Below are positions 17,603 to 34,009 of a stretch of DNA of 64,000 nucleotides, one piece after another. Each line of letters opens with the position of its first letter. The first letter of the stretch is position 1. The notes under the pieces were generated by a model. It did not search any database, was not told where the DNA came from, and saw nothing but the letters and a program-made list of their open reading frames with translations. Where the stretch lies: IMG/VR virus record IMGVR_UViG_3300032308_001681, positions 1-64,000 of that record; one strand, 5' to 3'. Made by a program: the position numbers and the translations under genes. This DNA is from a virus.

Positions 17603-17636
17603 CGGTAACTGCACTTGCGGAAAAGGTAAACGGTAA
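17595..17636 (+). CDS. Cys-rich micro-ORF (13 residues)
   Basis: GTG 17595 with GGGAGAAG upstream, encoding MCNGNCTCGKGKR and ending in TAA that overlaps the next ATG (TAATG). Its Cys spacing and Gly-Lys end recall the N-termini of the proteins at 18389 and 18556 (MAMCKCGxCAACK). The overlap on both sides and the ribosome site favour translation; it may be a remnant or minimal form of that family. Confidence 0.4.
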   Translation: MCNGNCTCGKGKR

Positions 17637-17824
17637 TGGTTGAAAAAAAGAAGGCCAAGTCTCGAGTCAATGAGGCGGGTAACTATACGAAACCTGCTCT
17701 TCGAGAGCGCCTGTTCAAAAAGATTAAAGCCGGTACTAAGGGCGGAGACCCCGGAGAGTGGTCTGCTCGCAAAGCCCAACTGCTGGCCTCAGAGTACAAG
17801 AAAGCAGGAGGTGGCTACAAGTAA
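17636..17824 (+). CDS. Small conserved basic phage protein (NEAGNYTKP type)
   Basis: 62 residues. The pattern N-x-A-G-N-Y-T-K-P, R-L-F-K-K-I-K-A-G-T-K-G-G, W-S-A-R-K-A-Q-L-L and a K-A-G-G-G-Y-K end is a known small family in tailed phages, often beside the next two genes. Strongly basic; may bind nucleic acid or assemble in the head. Stop and next start overlap (TAATG). Confidence 0.65.
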   Translation: MVEKKKAKSRVNEAGNYTKPALRERLFKKIKAGTKGGDPGEWSARKAQLLASEYKKAGGGYK

Positions 17825-18075
17825 TGGCTAAAGCAGCCTCTCAAAAGTCCCTAGATAAGTGGACAAGAGAAAAGTGGACTACGTCTGATGGTAGTCCCTC
17901 TAAAGGTAAGAGACGGTATCTTCCTGCAAAAGCTTGGGACGCCCTAACCCCCGCAGAAAAAGCAGCCACTAATCGCGCAAAGGCGAAGGGTGACGGAGGA
18001 AAGTCGGGTAAGCAGGTTGCTCCTCAACCTAAAAAGATTGCTGAAAAAACCGCCAAGTATAGAAGGAGCAGCTAA
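17824..18075 (+). CDS. Small conserved basic phage protein (KWTREKWTTSDG type)
   Basis: 83 residues from ATG 17824, which overlaps the previous stop; the upstream extension of the frame is a shadow. The motif KWTREKW-TTSDG, then RYLPAKAWDALTPAEKAATNRAK and a basic KIAEKTAKYR end belong to a recurrent phage and environmental family of unknown role (I recall it as DUF5872-like). pI very high. Translationally coupled on both sides. Confidence 0.65.
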   Translation: MAKAASQKSLDKWTREKWTTSDGSPSKGKRRYLPAKAWDALTPAEKAATNRAKAKGDGGKSGKQVAPQPKKIAEKTAKYRRSS

Positions 18076-18389
18076 TGGCAAGTGAAGCATGGCAGAAAAA
18101 AGTTGGTCAGAATGCTAAGGGTGGCCTTAATGAAAAGGGCCGTAAGTCCTACGAACGGGCTAACCCCGGCTCTGACTTGAAAGCCCCGGTAAAGTCTGGC
18201 GACAATCCTCGCCGAGCGTCGTTCTTGGCCCGCATGGGTAACATGCCCGGTCCAGAGCGCAAGCCCAACGGGGAACCCACACGTCTTCTCTTGTCACTTC
18301 AGGCATGGGGAGCATCCAGTAAAGCTGACGCCAAAAGTAAGGCCGCAGCAATAAGCAAGCGTCTTGACGCTAAGAAGGGTAAGAAATAA
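18075..18389 (+). CDS. Small conserved phage protein (GGLNEKGRKSY type)
   Basis: 104 residues. Motifs GGLNEKGRKSYERANPG, LKAPVKSGDNPRRASFLARM and NMPGPERKPNGEPTRL followed by LQAWGASSKADA match a recurrent phage family (I recall DUF6321-like) that travels with the two preceding families in marine and freshwater phages. Function unknown. Coupled to both neighbours by TAATG overlaps. Confidence 0.65.
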   Translation: MASEAWQKKVGQNAKGGLNEKGRKSYERANPGSDLKAPVKSGDNPRRASFLARMGNMPGPERKPNGEPTRLLLSLQAWGASSKADAKSKAAAISKRLDAKKGKK

Positions 18390-18556
18390 TGGCAATGTGC
18401 AAGTGTGGCAAATGTGCTGCGTGTAAAGCCCGTGCAAAGAAAGACGCCCCCACGGGAAAGAACGCAAAGCTTGCTTCGATGTATGGAGACAAAAAGAAAA
18501 TCACCCGTGGCGATGTTATTACTGCCGCCAAGATGAACAAGAAAAAAGGTAAATAA
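18389..18556 (+). CDS. Small Cys-cluster basic protein, copy 1
   Basis: 55 residues. The N-terminus MAMCKCGKCAACKARAKK has four Cys spaced C-x-C-x2-C-x2-C, suited to one zinc ion; the rest is Lys-rich. The first 16 residues are nearly identical to the next protein's, so the two are tandem duplicates that diverged downstream. Coupled by TAATG on both sides. Confidence 0.65.
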   Translation: MAMCKCGKCAACKARAKKDAPTGKNAKLASMYGDKKKITRGDVITAAKMNKKKGK

Positions 18557-18807
18557 TGGCAATGTGTAAGTGTGGTACGTGCGCGGCTTGTAAGAAGCGT
18601 GCAGCCGATAAAAAGAACAAGCCCTATATTGGTTCATCTGCTGATAAGAAGCAGGATGCCAAGACGACGAAGGGCATGACCCCTGCCCAGAAGGCAAAGT
18701 TCAACAAAGAAGACGCCAAGATGGACAGGAACACCAAGCTCACCAAGGCGCAAGACACTAAGAAAGACAACGCTCTTGCCAAGAAGATTAAGGCTGGTAA
18801 GAAGTAG
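18556..18807 (+). CDS. Small Cys-cluster basic protein, copy 2
   Basis: 83 residues. N-terminus MAMCKCGTCAACKKRAADKK repeats copy 1, again C-x-C-x2-C-x2-C, followed by a longer Lys/Ala/Asp-rich tail (MTPAQKAKFNKEDAKMD). Likely a zinc-stabilised, highly basic protein that could bind nucleic acid. Last gene of the chain; a terminator follows 19 bases after its stop. Confidence 0.65.
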   Translation: MAMCKCGTCAACKKRAADKKNKPYIGSSADKKQDAKTTKGMTPAQKAKFNKEDAKMDRNTKLTKAQDTKKDNALAKKIKAGKK

Positions 18808-20015: not shown

Positions 20016-21515
20016 ATGGCCGCATATGGTCGCCCCGGCGTTTACATCACGGAACGTCTTCTTCCTGCCCCCATCTCGTCCGGAGGTGGCACGGCTGCGG
20101 CTGGAGCCGTCATCTGCAGCTTGGGACAGGGCCCCACGGATATTACTCTTGTAAATTCGTGGTACGAATTCACTCAAACTTTTGGTGGATACGACCTCAA
20201 CTACCCCGCAACTTTTGGCATTGGGCAGTTCTTCAAAAGCGGTGGAAATGAGCTTTACGTCCGTCGCGTTCTTGCATCGGATGCAGTTGCTGCCAGTATG
20301 ACTATTGCGGCTTCGGCAGGTACTGTAGGTACCATCACTGCTCGCGCCAAGGGTGTTGACGGGAATAAGCTTGCTGTTCAGTTTATTCAAGTAGGGTCTA
20401 GTGCCTACTACAATGTCATTGTCAGCAAGGACGTTGGAACAACTGCCGATGTAGTTCTTGAGCAGTATGACAATGTCATGTTCGATAACGACCCTGTTAC
20501 AGGCGACTTTATTGTAGATGTCATTAACAATGCCTCGGCCTACATTACGGTGACTGTCAGTGACCAGACCAAGGTTCCTAGCGTAACAACTCCGGTTGGC
20601 TTTACAAGCGGCGCTAATGGTGCGGGGCTTGCAACAGCCGACTTTACGTCTGCGCTGGCCGACTTTAACGCGCTTGACCGTCCTCTTGTTATGTTTAGCC
20701 CAGAGCTTCACCGCCAAACGTTTGCTGCGGGTGGCGCAACTACGGCAGCAACTGTCTTAGACACGATAATTTCGTATGCTGCAACTGCAACCAACGTATT
20801 TGTGGTTGCCGAAACGGCGCCAGACTTGTCGGTAGCTTCCGCAATTACTTACGCCGATGGCCGTGCAAACCAGAGCAATGTCGCAATGTACTACCCCAAC
20901 GTTTTCATTGCTGACCCGTTTGGTCGGAATGCTACGTCGGTCCGTAAGTGCGGTCCTGCAGGTTCTGTGGCTGGGTTGTACATTGCAACTGACCGGGCTC
21001 AAGGGCCGTTCAAATCGCCTGCCGGTTTGCGCACCGAGCTTGGTGGCGTAGTTGCTCTTGAACGCCGCTTTACGTCAGCAGAGTTGGATACCCTTAACTC
21101 CAGCAGCTCGCCGGTAAACGCAATTCGCGATATCCCCGGCGCAGGTGTAGTGGTTATGGGTGCTCGCACCCTGCTGCAGGATGGAACGGCTAACCGTTAC
21201 GTCTCTATGCGACGCTCGCTTATTCACATCCAAAAGCAGCTCAAAGACCTTACGCAGTTTGCTATGTTCGAAAATAACGACTCCAACCTGTGGGGCCGGA
21301 TTCGCACAACGCTGAGTGTGTTCTTGAACGATTACCGCAATATTGGCGGCCTTGCTGGAACCACCCCTGATGAGGCTTTCTTTGTCAAGTGTGACCGGGA
21401 AAACAACCCGGACTCTGATATTGCACAGGGAATCGTAAACATCGAGGTTGGGGTTTCGCTTGAATACCCTGCTGAGTTTGTTGTCATCACTCTCAGTCAA
21501 AAGACTGCAAACTAA
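20016..21515 (+). CDS. Tail sheath protein
   Basis: 499 residues behind AAGGAGAAA. The N-terminal YGRPGVYITE, the FGGYDLNYPATFGIGQFFKSGG and ELYVRRV segment, and the C-terminal IRTTLSVFLNDY, then EAFFVKCDRENNP, IVNIEVGVSLEYPAEFVVITL are standard for contractile tail sheaths. It wraps the tube and contracts on infection to drive it into the host. Highly biased codons agree with an abundant structural protein. Confidence 0.95.
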   Translation: MAAYGRPGVYITERLLPAPISSGGGTAAAGAVICSLGQGPTDITLVNSWYEFTQTFGGYDLNYPATFGIGQFFKSGGNELYVRRVLASDAVAASMTIAASAGTVGTITARAKGVDGNKLAVQFIQVGSSAYYNVIVSKDVGTTADVVLEQYDNVMFDNDPVTGDFIVDVINNASAYITVTVSDQTKVPSVTTPVGFTSGANGAGLATADFTSALADFNALDRPLVMFSPELHRQTFAAGGATTAATVLDTIISYAATATNVFVVAETAPDLSVASAITYADGRANQSNVAMYYPNVFIADPFGRNATSVRKCGPAGSVAGLYIATDRAQGPFKSPAGLRTELGGVVALERRFTSAELDTLNSSSSPVNAIRDIPGAGVVVMGARTLLQDGTANRYVSMRRSLIHIQKQLKDLTQFAMFENNDSNLWGRIRTTLSVFLNDYRNIGGLAGTTPDEAFFVKCDRENNPDSDIAQGIVNIEVGVSLEYPAEFVVITLSQKTAN

Positions 21516-21533: not shown

Positions 21534-22232
21534 ATGGCAACCATTATTAACAACCGGTCAAATCTTGCGACCGACCCGATTAGGAACTTTCGGTTCCTCG
21601 TCAGCTTCAAACCGCACAACTCCAACCAACTGAACTTGTACGGTGGAGCAGTGCCGATTGGGTTTACCTCAATCTCTGGTCTGTCAGTAACCACTGACAG
21701 CATCCCCTACCGTGAAGGTGGGTACAACACGACGGTTCACCAGATTCCGGGACAGACCACGTTCTCACCAATTAGCTTGCAGCGTGGTGTAATTCTTGGT
21801 TCAAACCAGAACTGGGAATGGATGCGTAAGTTGTTCCGTACGGTACAGGCTGGTGGAAGCACCGACCTCATCACGGACTTCCGCGCTGACCTCGAGATTC
21901 AGGTTCTTAGTCACCCCATTGCGGGGGCTAACCCCGGAGACCCGACAGCTACGCCCTACGGCGACCACGTTGCCCTTCGTTTTCAGGTTTACAACGCATG
22001 GATTACCTCCGTTGCGTACTCTGACCTTAACGCGGGTGACAACGCCATCTACGTGGAGCAGATGACTCTGGTTCACGAGGGCTTTGATGTCAACTGGGCT
22101 CCGGACTTCAACACCTCGGCACCTGACTTTGACACTAACTCGTCAGCCGCAGTAACCCGGGTAGCCACAACTCGCGCGAAGGCTAACCCCCGCGCCCGGG
22201 CGACCCAGCTCCAGCGCACAACAATCGGCTAA
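21534..22232 (+). CDS. Tail tube protein
   Basis: 232 residues, directly after the sheath gene and behind AAGGAGAAA. Residues about 15-110 (RNFRFLVSF, GFTSISGLSV, HQIPGQTTFSPISLQRG, WEWMRKLF) match the gp19-like tube fold; the end (residues 200-232) is a basic Ala/Arg tail. Hexamers stack to form the inner DNA channel. Confidence 0.92.
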   Translation: MATIINNRSNLATDPIRNFRFLVSFKPHNSNQLNLYGGAVPIGFTSISGLSVTTDSIPYREGGYNTTVHQIPGQTTFSPISLQRGVILGSNQNWEWMRKLFRTVQAGGSTDLITDFRADLEIQVLSHPIAGANPGDPTATPYGDHVALRFQVYNAWITSVAYSDLNAGDNAIYVEQMTLVHEGFDVNWAPDFNTSAPDFDTNSSAAVTRVATTRAKANPRARATQLQRTTIG

Positions 22233-22256: not shown

Positions 22257-23078
22257 ATGGATACAAATAGTTTAAAAGCAACTGACAACCCAACACTGGC
22301 CAATGAGCTGGTTGCGCAGGCAATTGCTGACCCGACACAAGATGAGCCACAAGAAGTAACTATTGAACTTCCTTCGGACACTCTGGTAGACCTTCCCGGT
22401 GGGTACATCACCACAGAGGGGGAGGTCTACCAGACCGCAGAAGTTCGAGAGCTCAACGGGCGCGACGAAGAGGCGTTGGCCAAGGCGTCTACCTTGGGAC
22501 GCATGCTCAACATTGCCTTGAGCCGCGGCGTGGTGTCTATTGGCGGCAAGCCCGCTACCGAGAACATGTTGGACGGCATCCTCTCGGGTGACCGAGACGC
22601 TCTCTTGCTGGGAATCTACAAGGTAACTTTTGGAAACCCAGCAAAACTGGCTGCGTACTGTGGCGGATGCTCAGAGTACAAAGACATTGAAGTAGACCTA
22701 AATGCGGATATTAAAACTCGTATTTTGGTTAACCCCAAAGAAGACCGCGAGTTTACGGTACAAGGATTGAAGAGCACGTACACCGTTCTGCTTCCTAGCG
22801 GAGCTGTTCAAAAAGAAATGAACATGCTTGAGGATGCAAACATCCCTGCACTAAGCTCCATTCTTCTTAAAGGAACGGTAATTGCTATTAACGGTTCCCC
22901 GGTGTATAGCCCTGAACAAGTGCAGAGCATCGGTATTCGTGACCGTCGAAAAATCAGTGAAGAGATTGCTGAAAGAAACCCCGGCCCAAAGTTCGAAGAC
23001 ATCACAGTAGTGTGCCCGGACTGCGAGTCCGAGGTGGTGGTTCCGATTAGCATCGGAGCTTTGTTTCAGCTCTCGTAA
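22257..23078 (+). CDS. Tail assembly chaperone, T4-baseplate-chaperone type, with Cys pairs
   Basis: 273 residues, behind AAAAGGAC. Residues 60-120 (VRELNGRDEEALAKAS, LNIALSRGVVSIGG, LDGILSGDRDALLLGIYKVTFG) fit the T4 baseplate-hub assembly chaperone family found between tube and tape-measure genes. Two Cys pairs, CGGC (about residue 139) and CPDC (about 254), would form a split zinc site. The gene ends in two stops (TAA TAA). An open +1 frame with no start codon continues past them, so a longer frameshifted product of about 317 residues is likely. Confidence 0.8.
   Translation: MDTNSLKATDNPTLANELVAQAIADPTQDEPQEVTIELPSDTLVDLPGGYITTEGEVYQTAEVRELNGRDEEALAKASTLGRMLNIALSRGVVSIGGKPATENMLDGILSGDRDALLLGIYKVTFGNPAKLAAYCGGCSEYKDIEVDLNADIKTRILVNPKEDREFTVQGLKSTYTVLLPSGAVQKEMNMLEDANIPALSSILLKGTVIAINGSPVYSPEQVQSIGIRDRRKISEEIAERNPGPKFEDITVVCPDCESEVVVPISIGALFQLS
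23064..23067 (+). other. Putative +1 frameshift site (TTT-C)
   Basis: In-frame TTT at 23064-23066 is followed by C, so a Phe-tRNA could slip one base forward from TTT to TTC. Three codons before the TAATAA, this moves ribosomes into the +1 frame, which is open to 23211. The exact slip codon is inferred; other codons between here and the stop cannot be excluded. Confidence 0.55.
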
Positions 23079-23211
23079 TAAGTCTTACGGAGAAATACTT
23101 ACGGAATGGGTAGCCCTTACTCGGGCCTTTACCGGGTGGACTCTCACAGAAATTCAGAACCTGTCATTCCGCGAACGTAAAACGTGGTTAGACATTGCCA
23201 AACATAGTTAA
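23068..23211 (+). CDS. +1-frame C-terminal extension of tail assembly chaperone
   Basis: 47 codons, +1 relative to the chaperone gene, reading SYGEILTEW, RAFTGWTLTEIQNLSFRERKTW and ending DIAKHS-stop. The region has no ATG, GTG or TTG in this frame, yet its amino-acid sequence looks like genuine protein (balanced Trp, Glu, Leu, Arg; helix with RERKTW). It lies between tail tube and tape-measure genes, where tailed phages commonly make a fused chaperone by ribosomal frameshifting. So it is best read as the C-terminal part of the 22257 product. Confidence 0.75.
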   Translation, partial: SSRNKSYGEILTEWVALTRAFTGWTLTEIQNLSFRERKTWLDIAKHS

Positions 23212-23225
23212 GGATAAGTACGCAC

Positions 23226-25928
23226 ATGGCGGATGAGGTCACTAACGGGCTAAATAAGGCCAGTGCGGCCATTGACAAGCAGACAGTCAAGGTAGAAAAG
23301 CTTGTCAAAGAGTATGAAGAGCTTGCTCAAGCTGTCTACAAGGCTATGGGCGGTAGCGGAAAAATTGGTGGCGGAGGAGGCTCCACTGGGCCCATGATGC
23401 CCGGGGGCACTTTTGCGAACATCGCTCCGCCTTCCGGGGGTTCTGGAATGGGCGGCATGGGCGGCATGGGAAGCCTCCTCCCGGGGCTACTCTCAGCCGG
23501 TATTGCCGCAGGTGTAGGAGTTTACCAAGGACGGTTTATGGGAATGCCTGACGTTCAGGCAACCATGAACAGGGCCACCTCGTCCTATAATGCCGGTATT
23601 TCAATGGGCATTGGCGGAAGTGGAATGCGAGGCATGCAGTCCTCAACCCTTTCTGCAATGTCAGGCGGGTTGACTGCCAAAGGCAATGACGCCATGGTTT
23701 CAGAGTTCCTTGGTTCTCGAGGCATGAACTACAATGCCAACCCTAACTCGACGTATATGCAAACTGTTCGCGGAGTTAGCAACTCGGCCAAGTACTTGAA
23801 CATGAGCAACGAACGTTCAATGGCGGCCATTGAAGGCCTTACCAGTGGCGCTACATCTAGGTCTTTGCTTAATAACCTTGGTATTTATACATCAGATGTA
23901 TCTACTGGTAAAGAAAAGGGTCAGGCGCAAATCTTTAATGAGATTTCAAACCGACTTACTGCTGGTAGGGGCGCCTTCTCTGTAGAAGATGTAAACGACT
24001 CATTCCGCAGAGGAAACCTTGGGGCATCTTTGTCAGGCATGGGCCTGTCGGATGACCAACAGCAAATGTTCAAACAGTTCATGATTGCCAAGGCTCAGGG
24101 CAAAACCATGGACTTGTCTGACGATGCGGCTATGGCTGATTTGGCCAAAACTTCTGGGTTAAACCCCGCAACTATGGGCTACAAAAGCAATACGTATGAT
24201 ACACAAGCAATGGCTGTTGCCCAAGAAAACTACACCAAAGCAATTCAAGACATCCTTCCGCATTTAGAAAGTCTTAGCAAGACAGCCGGTGAAGCTGCTG
24301 CGGGGGTTGAGGGCCTTGCAAAAGCCACACTATCCTTTATGCAGGGCAACCAAGCTGGCGCAGGAGATGTCTTTGGAAAAATGGCCATGCTTAGCGCAGG
24401 CGGTGATGTTCTATCCACAGCTGTTGGTACCGCTATGGGCGGCGGATTCGGTGGCGGTGGCGGTGGCCGCCGCGGTGGTGGCGGTGGGGGTGGAGGCCGA
24501 CGTGGCAGCAACAAGCTTCCTCCGGGTTACACCGAGGTAAGCCCCGGTAGATTTCGAAACGATAAAACCGGCCAGTTTGCCGCTGACCCGCGTACCGGAG
24601 CTAGTAACTCTAAGTACTTGGCTCCGGCCGACCAAACACCTAAAGATGGTGCGCCTAAACTTGGAGCGGGTCGTCAAGTCCTTAAAACAGCGGGCCAGCT
24701 CGGTAAGGGCATGGGAATTGCTGGCGCTGTCATTGGAGGCTTGACGCTTGCTGACGACATCGCAAACGGACACGGCTGGGGAACCAAGCAGTTCAGCACT
24801 GATATGGGCTCAACTATCGGCGGAACTGCCGGTGCAGTACTCGGCGGTGCGCTCGGCACGTTTCTTGGTCCTGTGGGTACTGTTCTTGGTGGTATGGCAG
24901 GCAGCTACGTAGGTAGCTGGCTCGGCGGTACAATCGGCGGCATGTTTGGTACAGGTGGAACTAACAGCACCATTAGTGGCAGTCAACCCACAGGCAGTGG
25001 TGCTGGAAACAAGCTGAGCTTTATTATGCCTGTTAATGGCAACATCTCTAGCGGGTTTGGGCCGAGGACTCCTCCGGCTCCGGGGGCTAGCAGTTTCCAC
25101 GATGGAATTGACATTGGCGCTGCTGAGGGCGCGGCCATCGGTGCGTCAGCCGAGGGTGTTGTAACTGTCGCGGGGGACAAGGGCGCATACGGTAAGTACA
25201 TTGAGATTAAACACCCCAATGGTTACATCACCTTTTATGCTCACCAGTCCCGCTTTGCTATTGGTGTAGGCGCAAAAGTTCGTCAAGGCCAGTTGATAGG
25301 TTACGTAGGAAACACTGGAGTGTCTACAGGCGCACACCTTCACTTTGGTATGCACGACGAAAAGGGCGCAAAGATTGACCCCTTGAAGGTTATTAGTGGC
25401 GGTGCTCCAAGTAGCATGAGTGGCGCTGAGGGCAGCAAGGGGTTTGTTTCCGGTGGAGGCGCAGTAGCCAAGGACTTAAACTCGCTGATTGACTCTCGAG
25501 CCAAGGTGGGTGCTGAACGAGTCGGCGGAATATCTGGCGCTAATGGTGGAATGGCAAGAGGCGCTGCTCCCGGTGGCTCGGCTGGTGGCAACAACCTCAT
25601 GGTAGGAAATAGTCAGCAAAACCTTGTGAGCAACAACCGCATGGGAATCTACCTGCCCGGAGCACCTCGAGCCAAGCAGGGAGACTCTTATGTCGCCCAA
25701 GACGGCCCCGTCAACGTGCACGCTGGTGAGGCCATCCTTACCTCACAACAGGCAGACACATGGCGCAAAGCTCTCCAAAGCGGAAAGCTTGGCGGAAGCG
25801 GCGGGAACAACGTCACAATTAACGTTACTGTTCAACAAGCCTCTGAAGCAGAGGCCAAACGATTGGCAAAGATGGTTAAAGAATACATTGACCAAGATGA
25901 CATGTTTAGTCAGATGGGAAGTTCATAA
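23226..25928 (+). CDS. Tail tape measure protein with M23 peptidase domain
   Basis: 900 residues, helical with Gly-rich low-complexity linkers (around 40-100, 395-430, 430-480) and hydrophobic Gly/Ala segments (490-580) that could enter the host membrane. Residues about 598-720 form an LytM/M23 zinc metallopeptidase: GFGPR..., FHDGIDIG (His, Asp), YAHQS and HLHFG, all metal ligands present. The length sets tail length; the peptidase probably opens peptidoglycan during injection. It follows the frameshifted chaperone, the usual order. Confidence 0.92.
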   Translation: MADEVTNGLNKASAAIDKQTVKVEKLVKEYEELAQAVYKAMGGSGKIGGGGGSTGPMMPGGTFANIAPPSGGSGMGGMGGMGSLLPGLLSAGIAAGVGVYQGRFMGMPDVQATMNRATSSYNAGISMGIGGSGMRGMQSSTLSAMSGGLTAKGNDAMVSEFLGSRGMNYNANPNSTYMQTVRGVSNSAKYLNMSNERSMAAIEGLTSGATSRSLLNNLGIYTSDVSTGKEKGQAQIFNEISNRLTAGRGAFSVEDVNDSFRRGNLGASLSGMGLSDDQQQMFKQFMIAKAQGKTMDLSDDAAMADLAKTSGLNPATMGYKSNTYDTQAMAVAQENYTKAIQDILPHLESLSKTAGEAAAGVEGLAKATLSFMQGNQAGAGDVFGKMAMLSAGGDVLSTAVGTAMGGGFGGGGGGRRGGGGGGGGRRGSNKLPPGYTEVSPGRFRNDKTGQFAADPRTGASNSKYLAPADQTPKDGAPKLGAGRQVLKTAGQLGKGMGIAGAVIGGLTLADDIANGHGWGTKQFSTDMGSTIGGTAGAVLGGALGTFLGPVGTVLGGMAGSYVGSWLGGTIGGMFGTGGTNSTISGSQPTGSGAGNKLSFIMPVNGNISSGFGPRTPPAPGASSFHDGIDIGAAEGAAIGASAEGVVTVAGDKGAYGKYIEIKHPNGYITFYAHQSRFAIGVGAKVRQGQLIGYVGNTGVSTGAHLHFGMHDEKGAKIDPLKVISGGAPSSMSGAEGSKGFVSGGGAVAKDLNSLIDSRAKVGAERVGGISGANGGMARGAAPGGSAGGNNLMVGNSQQNLVSNNRMGIYLPGAPRAKQGDSYVAQDGPVNVHAGEAILTSQQADTWRKALQSGKLGGSGGNNVTINVTVQQASEAEAKRLAKMVKEYIDQDDMFSQMGSS

Positions 25929-30975: not shown

Positions 30976-32922
30976 ATGCAGGTAGACAGTTATGGGAACC
31001 GCAGGTTCTACGGCCTTTACCGAGGCGTAGTAGTTGAAAATGCCGACCCATTAAGCCAAAACAGGGTCAAGGTACGGGTTCCGCAGGTCCTGTTTGACGC
31101 CACTACTGACTGGGCTTGGGTTCAACAAGCCCATGGAGTTCAGGTAGACCCGCCAGAAATTGGCCAAGGTGTCTGGGTACAGTTTGAGGGGGGCGACCCG
31201 TCATTCCCTGTCTGGGTTGGTACATTTGCCGATACGGCTAAGTTAAAACTTGCGTTAAATGACCTTACAGACGTCAACACTGCTGGAGTTACTAACGGGC
31301 AAACCATTGTTTACCAAGCTTCGTCTAGCTCTTGGATTCCCGGAGCGGGGGCTCAAGGTGCACAGGGTCCGCAGGGGGCTCAAGGTGCACAGGGTCCGCA
31401 GGGTACCCAAGGCACACAGGGGGCACAAGGTGCCCAAGGAGCCGCCTCTACGGTAGCCGGACCGCAGGGCTCACAGGGACCGCAGGGGACTGTAGGACCT
31501 CAAGGTACGCAAGGCCCACAAGGTGCTCAAGGTGCGACGGGTACGCAAGGACCTCAAGGTGTTCAAGGTTCTCAGGGTGCTACTGGCTCTCAAGGTCCCC
31601 AAGGAACACAGGGGGCACAAGGCTCTCAAGGCTCACAAGGTCCTCAGGGACCTCAAGGAACGCAAGGTCCGCAGGGAAGTCAAGGAGCAGCATCTACAGT
31701 TGCCGGACCTCAAGGACCGCAGGGGAGTACTGGACCTCAAGGTACGCAAGGTCCACAAGGTTCGACCGGTTCTACGGGTGCTGGTGGTGCGCTTGGTTAT
31801 TGGGGCAGTTTTTGGTCTACAAGCACTCAAACAACAGCCAGCTCTTCAGCCGTAAACGCGGTTACGCTAAACACAACTGACCCAGACTCAAACGGCGTTT
31901 CTATAGCATCGTCTTCTCGTGTGACGTTTGCGTACTCTGGAACGTATAACGTACAGTTTTCTGCTCAAGTACACGAGCCTTCAAACGGCTCACCTAGTAT
32001 TGACTTCTGGCTACGGCTTAATGGGACAAACATTCCAGAAACAACCGGAACAGTAAACCTCAGTAATCAAATGCCGTATGCGATGGCCGCGTGGAATTAC
32101 ATCTTAGATTTATCTGCTGGTGATTACCTTGAGCTTATGTGGGCCGCGGATTCGACGAATCCTCGTCTGGAATACAAAGCCGCTCAAACAACCCCTCATG
32201 TGGCTCCTGCTACTCCTTCAGTCATACTTACTGCTCAACAAGTTATGTACACTCAGCTTGGACCGCAGGGGGCGCAGGGGTCTCAGGGTCCTCAAGGAGT
32301 GCAGGGTTCTCAAGGAACACAGGGGGTGCAGGGGTCTCAAGGAACACAAGGAACACAAGGACCACAAGGTGCACAGGGTCCGCAAGGCTCACAGGGTCCT
32401 CAAGGAGTGGGAGTACCCGCAGGAGGTACTGCGGGTCAATTTCTTACAAAAGTTAGTGCGACAAACTATGACACTCAGTGGTCGAACCTTCCCACGGGCT
32501 CCGTTATTCAAGTTCTCTCCACCGCAAAGACGACCGTTTTTTCTACAACGTCCACGTCTATTGTAGATGTGACGGGTATGTCGGTGACCATCACGCCAAA
32601 GTCAACAAGTAGCACTATCCTCGTTATGGTGAATTTTCTACAGAGCACCAACAACACAGCTACTACAAACTCATTTCGCATCATTCGTGGTTCAACCAGT
32701 ATCGGCGCAACTGGTTCAACGTATTACTCAAGTCCCTTTCAGGGCGGTCTTACAGGTTATTGGATGGCACTAACTTTTCTTGACTCACCAGCGTCAACTA
32801 GCGCACTTACTTACAAACTTTCTATGTTGACCGGTGCCTCAACCACCGGCTATGTAGGCGCGTACTCCCAAAACACGGGCTTGCCGTCAACGTCAACAAT
32901 TACAGTTATGGAGGTTGCATAG
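30976..32922 (+). CDS. Baseplate spike protein (gp5/gpV OB-fold) with collagen-like repeats
   Basis: 648 residues. Residues about 10-90 ([44 protein letters not shown]) are the OB-fold domain of the central spike. Residues about 125-270 and 429-478 are Gly-x-Gln collagen-like triplets (GPQ, GAQ, GTQ, GSQ); between and after them are beta domains of C1q/TNF-like type (280-425 and 490-648). The OB fold fits hub contact, the repeats a long trimeric fibre. Such a fusion is unusual; see findings. Confidence 0.75.
31348..31788 (+). repeat. Collagen-like Gly-x-Gln triplet repeat, block 1
   Basis: About 145 codons of Gly-X-Gln and related triplets (third codons CAA or CAG throughout). The DNA is a degenerate 9-base repeat (GGNCNNCAR) interrupted by two near-identical inserts spelling [11 protein letters not shown]. 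Frame +1 and +2 shadow ORFs in this stretch are produced by the repeat. Confidence 0.9.
32260..32409 (+). repeat. Collagen-like Gly-x-Gln triplet repeat, block 2
   Basis: About 50 codons of the same [15 protein letters not shown] triplets as block 1, after an intervening beta domain. Codon choice is mixed between CAA and CAG so the repeat is constrained at protein level. Confidence 0.9.
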
Positions 32923-33241: not shown

Positions 33242-34009
33242 ATGATATCGGTCATTACACCCACATATAACACACCGCCAGATGTACTTGCCCGCACATG
33301 GGCATCGCTTAAGTCTCAAACCTATAAGGATTGGGAATGGGTTATCTGGGATGACTCTACTGTTCCAGAGACATGGGCGCAGATTTACGGTTTCGCTTCT
33401 GATGAGCGCTTTAAGATAACTGCGCATCGGTCCCACGTCCACTCCGGCTCTATCGGGGAAGTCAAGCGCCGAGGCTTTATGGTGGCGGAAGGCGACATTC
33501 TTGTTGAACTTGACCATGACGACGAATTGACCCCCGATGCTCTTGAGTTAATTGCCAAAGAGTTTGAGGCAGAAAATATCGGGTTTGTCTACTCTGACTG
33601 GACAGAAATACTTGCTGATGGTCAATCTGGAAAATACCCTGACGGCTGGGCTTTTGGCTATGGGCAGCACTATTGGGATGACGACCTACAGCTGTGGGGC
33701 TCCCGTGTTGCGGAGATTAACTCGACTACCTTAGGGCACATCGTGTCCGCGCCCAACCACGTCCGTGCATGGCGCGCATCTGTTTACCGCGAACTTGGCG
33801 GGCACAACCCGCAGTTGGAGATTGCCGATGACTATGAGCTGGTTGTACGTACAGCCCTTGTGACTGACTTTTCACATATCCCCAAGGTAATTTACAAGCA
33901 GCACGTAGGTGCGCACACTGCTCAACGTAAGCAGAATGAAAAAATTCAACAGTATGTTGCAGAGATTTCTGCCCAGTACAAGGACGCCATTGAAGAGGCT
34001 CTTGCCTAG
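33242..34009 (+). CDS. GT-A family 2 glycosyltransferase
   Basis: 255 residues. N-terminal ITPTYNTP (6-13), WDDS (36-39) and DHDD (91-94, the metal-binding DxD position) with LTPDALELIAKEF, followed by YSDW, an acceptor-side region and DDYELVVR near 200. These are GT-2 nucleotide-sugar transferase motifs. It may glycosylate virion proteins or host surface molecules. A TAGGCT hexamer lies nine bases before the ATG and no SD is seen. Confidence 0.85.
   Translation: MISVITPTYNTPPDVLARTWASLKSQTYKDWEWVIWDDSTVPETWAQIYGFASDERFKITAHRSHVHSGSIGEVKRRGFMVAEGDILVELDHDDELTPDALELIAKEFEAENIGFVYSDWTEILADGQSGKYPDGWAFGYGQHYWDDDLQLWGSRVAEINSTTLGHIVSAPNHVRAWRASVYRELGGHNPQLEIADDYELVVRTALVTDFSHIPKVIYKQHVGAHTAQRKQNEKIQQYVAEISAQYKDAIEEALA

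Follow-up and report, generated by a model that had tools for sequence, protein, structure and literature searches.

The window, i.e., the whole 64,000-nt stretch of DNA that we analyzed, belongs to a viral record of 94.5 kb. Its tail genes occur in the order sheath, gp19 tube, chaperone ORF (22257-23078) and tape measure with an M23 domain (Table 1), and the phage is contractile-tailed, with a host probably among the actinobacteria. The chaperone ORF ends with the codons GCT TTG TTT CAG CTC TCG TAA TAA, where the TTT (23064-23066) is located three codons from the stop and is followed by a C (23067). From position 23068, the +1 frame is open as far as a stop at 23209-23211, giving 47 codons past the slip, SSRNKSYGEILTEWVALTRAFTGWTLTEIQNLSFRERKTWLDIAKHS, none of them ATG, GTG or TTG. 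This agrees with the initial annotation, which had described a start-less +1 frame of 47 codons after the TAATAA of the chaperone, a TTT-C three codons ahead of this stop, and a location of both between tube and tape-measure genes; we were able to identify the genes on either side as a gp19 tube and an M23 tape measure. Elsewhere in the window, a row of small lysine-/serine-rich ORFs is present upstream of the sheath region (17636-18807), and a tail fibre protein with a collagen-like repeat (GPQGXQG; 30976-32922) is followed downstream by a glycosyltransferase-like gene (33242-34009).

Table 1. Positions of the tail genes and of the predicted frameshift features in the window
Feature	Position	Strand	Basis
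Sheath	20016-21515		
Tail tube protein, gp19 family	21534..22232	+	PF06841, E 3.3e-27
Tail/hub assembly chaperone, short form, 273 aa, two CxxC pairs	22257..23078	+	T4 gp26/gp51 family (PF12322)
Predicted +1 slip site TTT_C	23064..23067	+	TTT-C in 87/87 sequences; zero changes on tree
+1-frame extension, 47 codons + TAA; predicted long form 317 aa	23068..23211	+	Conserved motif; pN/pS 0.37
Tandem 0-frame stop TAATAA closing the short form	23076..23081	+	Sequence
Tape measure protein with peptidase M23 domain	23226..25928	+	PF01551, E 1.4e-29; position after chaperone

Conservation of the +1 extension and of TTT-C

We compared 87 sequences, made up of the window, 78 viral contigs, five Streptomyces phages and three bacterial assemblies, i.e., 84 phage sequences with the window included and three bacterial assembly loci. 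An alignment search of IMG/VR gave 80 loci, 79 of which extend to the 0-frame stop; one viral locus (L007), encoding a protein identical to that of the window, was omitted from the counts. In all 79 loci reaching the 0-frame stop, TTT-C is present, and the +1 frame after it is open and encodes a conserved motif. The Streptomyces phages BRock, LuckySocke, Alone3, GiJojo and pSt2308, at 37-41% identity, have the same gene layout, with 0-frame proteins that end in LF.., and with TTT-C and then a +1 extension. A genome scan identified loci in assemblies of Streptomyces, Terracoccus and a Proteobacteria MAG (26-34% identity), with slip contexts of TTT CGC, TTT CCG and TTT CGC, respectively, and with similar extensions. 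The +1 extension is therefore open and conserved in 87/87 sequences, with a length of 47 to 79 codons, and since all 84 phage sequences and all three bacterial loci carry both TTT-C and this extension, the arrangement in the window is not due to chance. The programmed frameshift put forward in the initial annotation gains support from the retention of extension and slip codon in every relative compared; a stop or frame change in relatives, or a separate start, had been named as evidence against it, and we found neither in the 86 relatives where we looked.

The extension is under purifying selection as a protein in the +1 frame. Its motif is ..Y..L..EW..L...Y.GWTL.EIK.LSPRER.NWLE, and its pN/pS is 0.37 in the +1 frame vs 0.89 and 1.33 in the other two. 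Differences fall at +1-frame codon positions 1, 2 and 3 in the numbers 721, 438 and 911, and the other two frames hold stops in 72/72 distinct sequences. Searches of Pfam and PHROGs with the extensions alone gave no match over the cut-off, and weak matches to DUF6760, P2 GpE and Phage_TAC_7 were obtained with a few fused members only. From one genome taken alone, and from nothing beyond it, the extension could be read as a sequencing or assembly artefact or as a decayed gene end, but the arrangement is found in 87 sequences, cultured Streptomyces phages among them, and with the pN/pS value above; this conservation refutes such a reading, to which we attach a negligible probability.

Alternatively, the extension could be a small gene of its own, expressed through re-initiation coupled to the chaperone stop and possibly from a non-canonical start. 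Distant family members do seem to re-initiate, for example jumbo phage LR756511 and a Streptomyces injection locus (both described below), and the annotators of the Streptomyces phages called separate ORFs. However, 28 loci lack a start codon within the first 25 codons of the extension, and five of these loci, the window included, lack one altogether; no conserved start codon is present in the extension across the relatives compared, annotated starts vary among close phages, and re-initiation would need no invariant TTT-C in the 0 frame. We consider a separate gene improbable. In the annotations of the Streptomyces phages, the extension appears as separate hypothetical ORFs with varying starts or is left uncalled, i.e., current annotation misses or mis-starts it in these phages.

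Examination of the slip codon demonstrated that UUU followed by C in the frame overlap is under selection beyond amino acid identity. In an alignment of 76 members, the slip column has a TTT:TTC ratio of 76:0, with C next every time, and three other conserved Phe columns have ratios of 60:14, 55:16 and 49:13; on a tree built from these proteins, neither the slip TTT nor the C after it changes, and the other Phe columns change 8, 15 and 9 times. Away from the slip site, TTT is almost missing from GC-rich relatives: among the Terracoccus tail genes examined, 75 of 76 Phe codons are TTC and the sole TTT is the slip codon, and Phe codons in Streptomyces are TTC 44 times vs TTT 3 times. In the A site, 86/87 sequences have CGN or CAR (CAG in the window) and one has CCG, and the stop of the short form differs within the family (TAG, TAA or TGA). 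A stop in the +1 frame is located four codons upstream of the TTT in 26 of 79 viral loci, and the shift is therefore confined to the last few codons. An avoidance of TTT ahead of codons starting with C (0.40 vs 0.65-0.81 ahead of purines) was discarded as evidence, since Asp is similarly biased.

A real +1 shift might instead take place on a different codon close to the stop, or through a -2 slip, as the net frame change would be identical, and the distantly related SP-15 group retains a +1 extension despite a variable TTT context. Codons from the TTT to the stop nonetheless vary freely on the same 76-tip tree, with 26 changes at the third base of the A site and 13 in the stop codon, and TTT-C is invariant; in a -2 slip, tRNA-Phe would face UGU, with poor pairing. 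We consider a shift of this kind improbable as well.

A predicted +1 shift at UUU_C and its precedents

Based on these comparisons, we read the gene as a tail assembly chaperone of the T4 gp26/gp51 type that would be made in two forms through a +1 shift at UUU_C, with a probability of about 0.88. Most ribosomes would halt at TAATAA and release the 273-aa short form, and a fraction would shift +1 while UUU occupies the P site and CAG the A site, the latter codon being CGN or CAR in almost every relative. The anticodon of tRNA-Phe, GAA, makes a wobble pair with UUU but is fully matched to UUC; a forward move of one base would therefore be favourable, with the tRNA re-pairing from UUU to the better-matched UUC. 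Translation past the slip would yield the 317-aa long form with a helical tail at its end. We infer that the shift occurs and that the two products divide binding roles between them: the part common to both would hold the tape measure protein, and tube subunits would be recruited by the tail.

No conserved RNA structure was found downstream of the slip site, where a consensus fold of 14 relatives gave no pairs and single-sequence folding z-scores were scattered from -2.9 to +0.8; the signal is thus probably UUU_C itself. As there is also no obvious upstream stimulator at the site, the efficiency of frameshifting may be modest. In bacteria, UUU_Ynn is reported as a particularly +1-prone site with no stop adjacent to it (PMC5009743). 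The sequences form a large, clean bacterial family of predicted +1 frameshifts with a signal that seems to be four bases, and would be of use in the study of UUU_C slippage where neither a neighbouring stop codon nor an RNA structure assists.

The short and long forms probably act like lambda gpG and gpGT, by analogy with a system where one gene, in the same tube/tape-measure position, likewise gives a short and a C-terminally extended form. Of the marks of a G/GT-type gene, the window gene has this position and a conserved out-of-frame extension without its own start; it does not have the -1 slip of lambda, as the predicted shift at UUU_C is +1 and 87/87 sequences have their extension in the +1 frame, the direction that the initial annotation had assigned. 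The window chaperone also differs from that of lambda in belonging to the T4 gp26/gp51 family.

Shifting of the UUU_CGN type at this gene position has already been proposed, and what is new here is much deeper conservation evidence and the link to T4. In the HF1 group of haloviruses, UUU_CGC has been proposed as a +1 site at the same gene position, and HSTV-2 is likewise reported as likely +1 (PMC7230728). Our examination of the HF2 sequence (L106, 31028-31811, minus strand) showed a chaperone ending TTT CGC AGA TAG, followed by a +1 extension. These viruses therefore share with the window a +1 arrangement between tube and tape measure, with the TTT-CGC of HF2 two codons from the stop, but have a smaller chaperone of 156 aa and archaeal hosts, and the proposal was made from six genomes; the likeness is one of position and motif. 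UUU_CGN sites of +1 shifting are also known from influenza A PA-X and plant amalgaviruses (PMC3498833, PMC5052127). The tetranucleotide is the same, and the CGN A-site codon is that of most window relatives, but eukaryotic ribosomes and unrelated genes are involved, and the A site of the window is CAG.

Family of the chaperone and the T4 gp26/gp51 pair

The window chaperone is a member of the T4 gp26/gp51 hub-assembly family (PF12322, phrog_150) and not a homologue of lambda G. PF12322 matches the 0-frame protein at E 2.3e-5 (24.6 bits, with a cut-off of 24.5) and the fused protein at 24.1 bits, and 43/43 fused family members match it, with a best E of 1.9e-11. An AF2 model of the 0-frame protein (pLDDT 87) gave 50 matches in BFVD at E < 1e-3 (best E 3.6e-18), with T4-like baseplate hub assembly proteins among them, and with gp26 of Aeromonas phage 25 matched at E 4e-4. 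A fold search of the PDB with this model found nothing significant; in sixth place was the HK97 tail assembly chaperone 2ob9_B (E 1.7, prob 0.66), which is suggestive only. No PDB match was found with a model of gp51.

T4 gp26 and gp51 are paralogues, matching PF12322 at E 9e-64 and 4e-52, respectively. In the aligned pair, gp26 stops at ..EFFELL, where the gp51 tail begins. Profile comparison showed the fused window family to be colinear with gp51 (P 1.5e-3, in a single pairwise test). With the extension profile, a short, weak match to the gp51 tail was obtained (P 3.5e-4 in pairwise hhalign, about 5 bits in HMMER), and none to gp26. It appears from these comparisons that gp51 corresponds to gp26 with an added tail similar to the window extension, to be read with caution, as the tests are short and single pairwise ones. 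The T4 pair and the window gene thus have in common PF12322 and a C-terminal tail at the position of the extension, but T4 has two separate genes on opposite strands and no frameshift.

According to a review, G-T frameshifting is widely conserved, with T4 excepted (PMC5009743). Given this exception, the paralogy of gp26 and gp51 and the likeness of the gp51 tail, we lean slightly toward the view that gp26 and gp51 are counterparts of the short and the frameshifted long chaperone, with a duplication in T4 having replaced the frameshift, +1 or -1, kept by other family members. If true, this explains T4 as an exception to the G/GT rule and gives gp51 a defined role. A point against it is that T4 gp26 has been assigned to the hub itself in some studies (PMC3004832). 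In the non-subscription literature, we found no paper that equates gp26/gp51 with G/GT or that states a duplication in T4. In cyanophage S-SSM4, gp26 and gp51 were not located. A separate protein family, phrog_634 (121 aa), matches T4 gp51 residues 147-246, with its start within the chaperone domain and its end in the gp51 tail; its members may be extension ORFs that lie out of frame and were called from internal starts.

Other arrangements among PF12322 relatives

More distant PF12322 phages, each case below consisting of one or a few genomes, contain extensions whose relation to that of the window is one of shape and position only. A +1 extension with a variable TTT context occurs in Bacillus SP-15, Listeria LIS04 and Streptococcus GXN1, and because LIS04, in the distant SP-15 group, is without TTT-C, this signal is not universal in PF12322 phages. 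A +1 extension is also present in jumbo phage LR756508, with TTT CTA, and in Microcystis Mel-JY01, with TTT TTT TGG, where the chaperone was recognised solely by SP-15 similarity and position, its own Pfam scan being negative. In Agrobacterium Atu_ph07 (L118, near 1984) and Pseudomonas PA5oct (L119, near 2470), a -1-frame extension follows T_TTT_TTC, and these PF12322 genes are likely to be unannotated classical -1 frameshifts. In jumbo phage LR756511, an ATG overlaps the chaperone stop (TAATG). A contractile injection locus of Streptomyces diastatochromogenes (L111, 6574-7139) encodes a 139-aa zinc-ribbon homologue of the chaperone (E 3.3e-5 with the fused profile), and the TGA of this homologue is overlapped by the GTG start of a DUF6760 ORF; in the injection system, DUF6760 may correspond to the extension.
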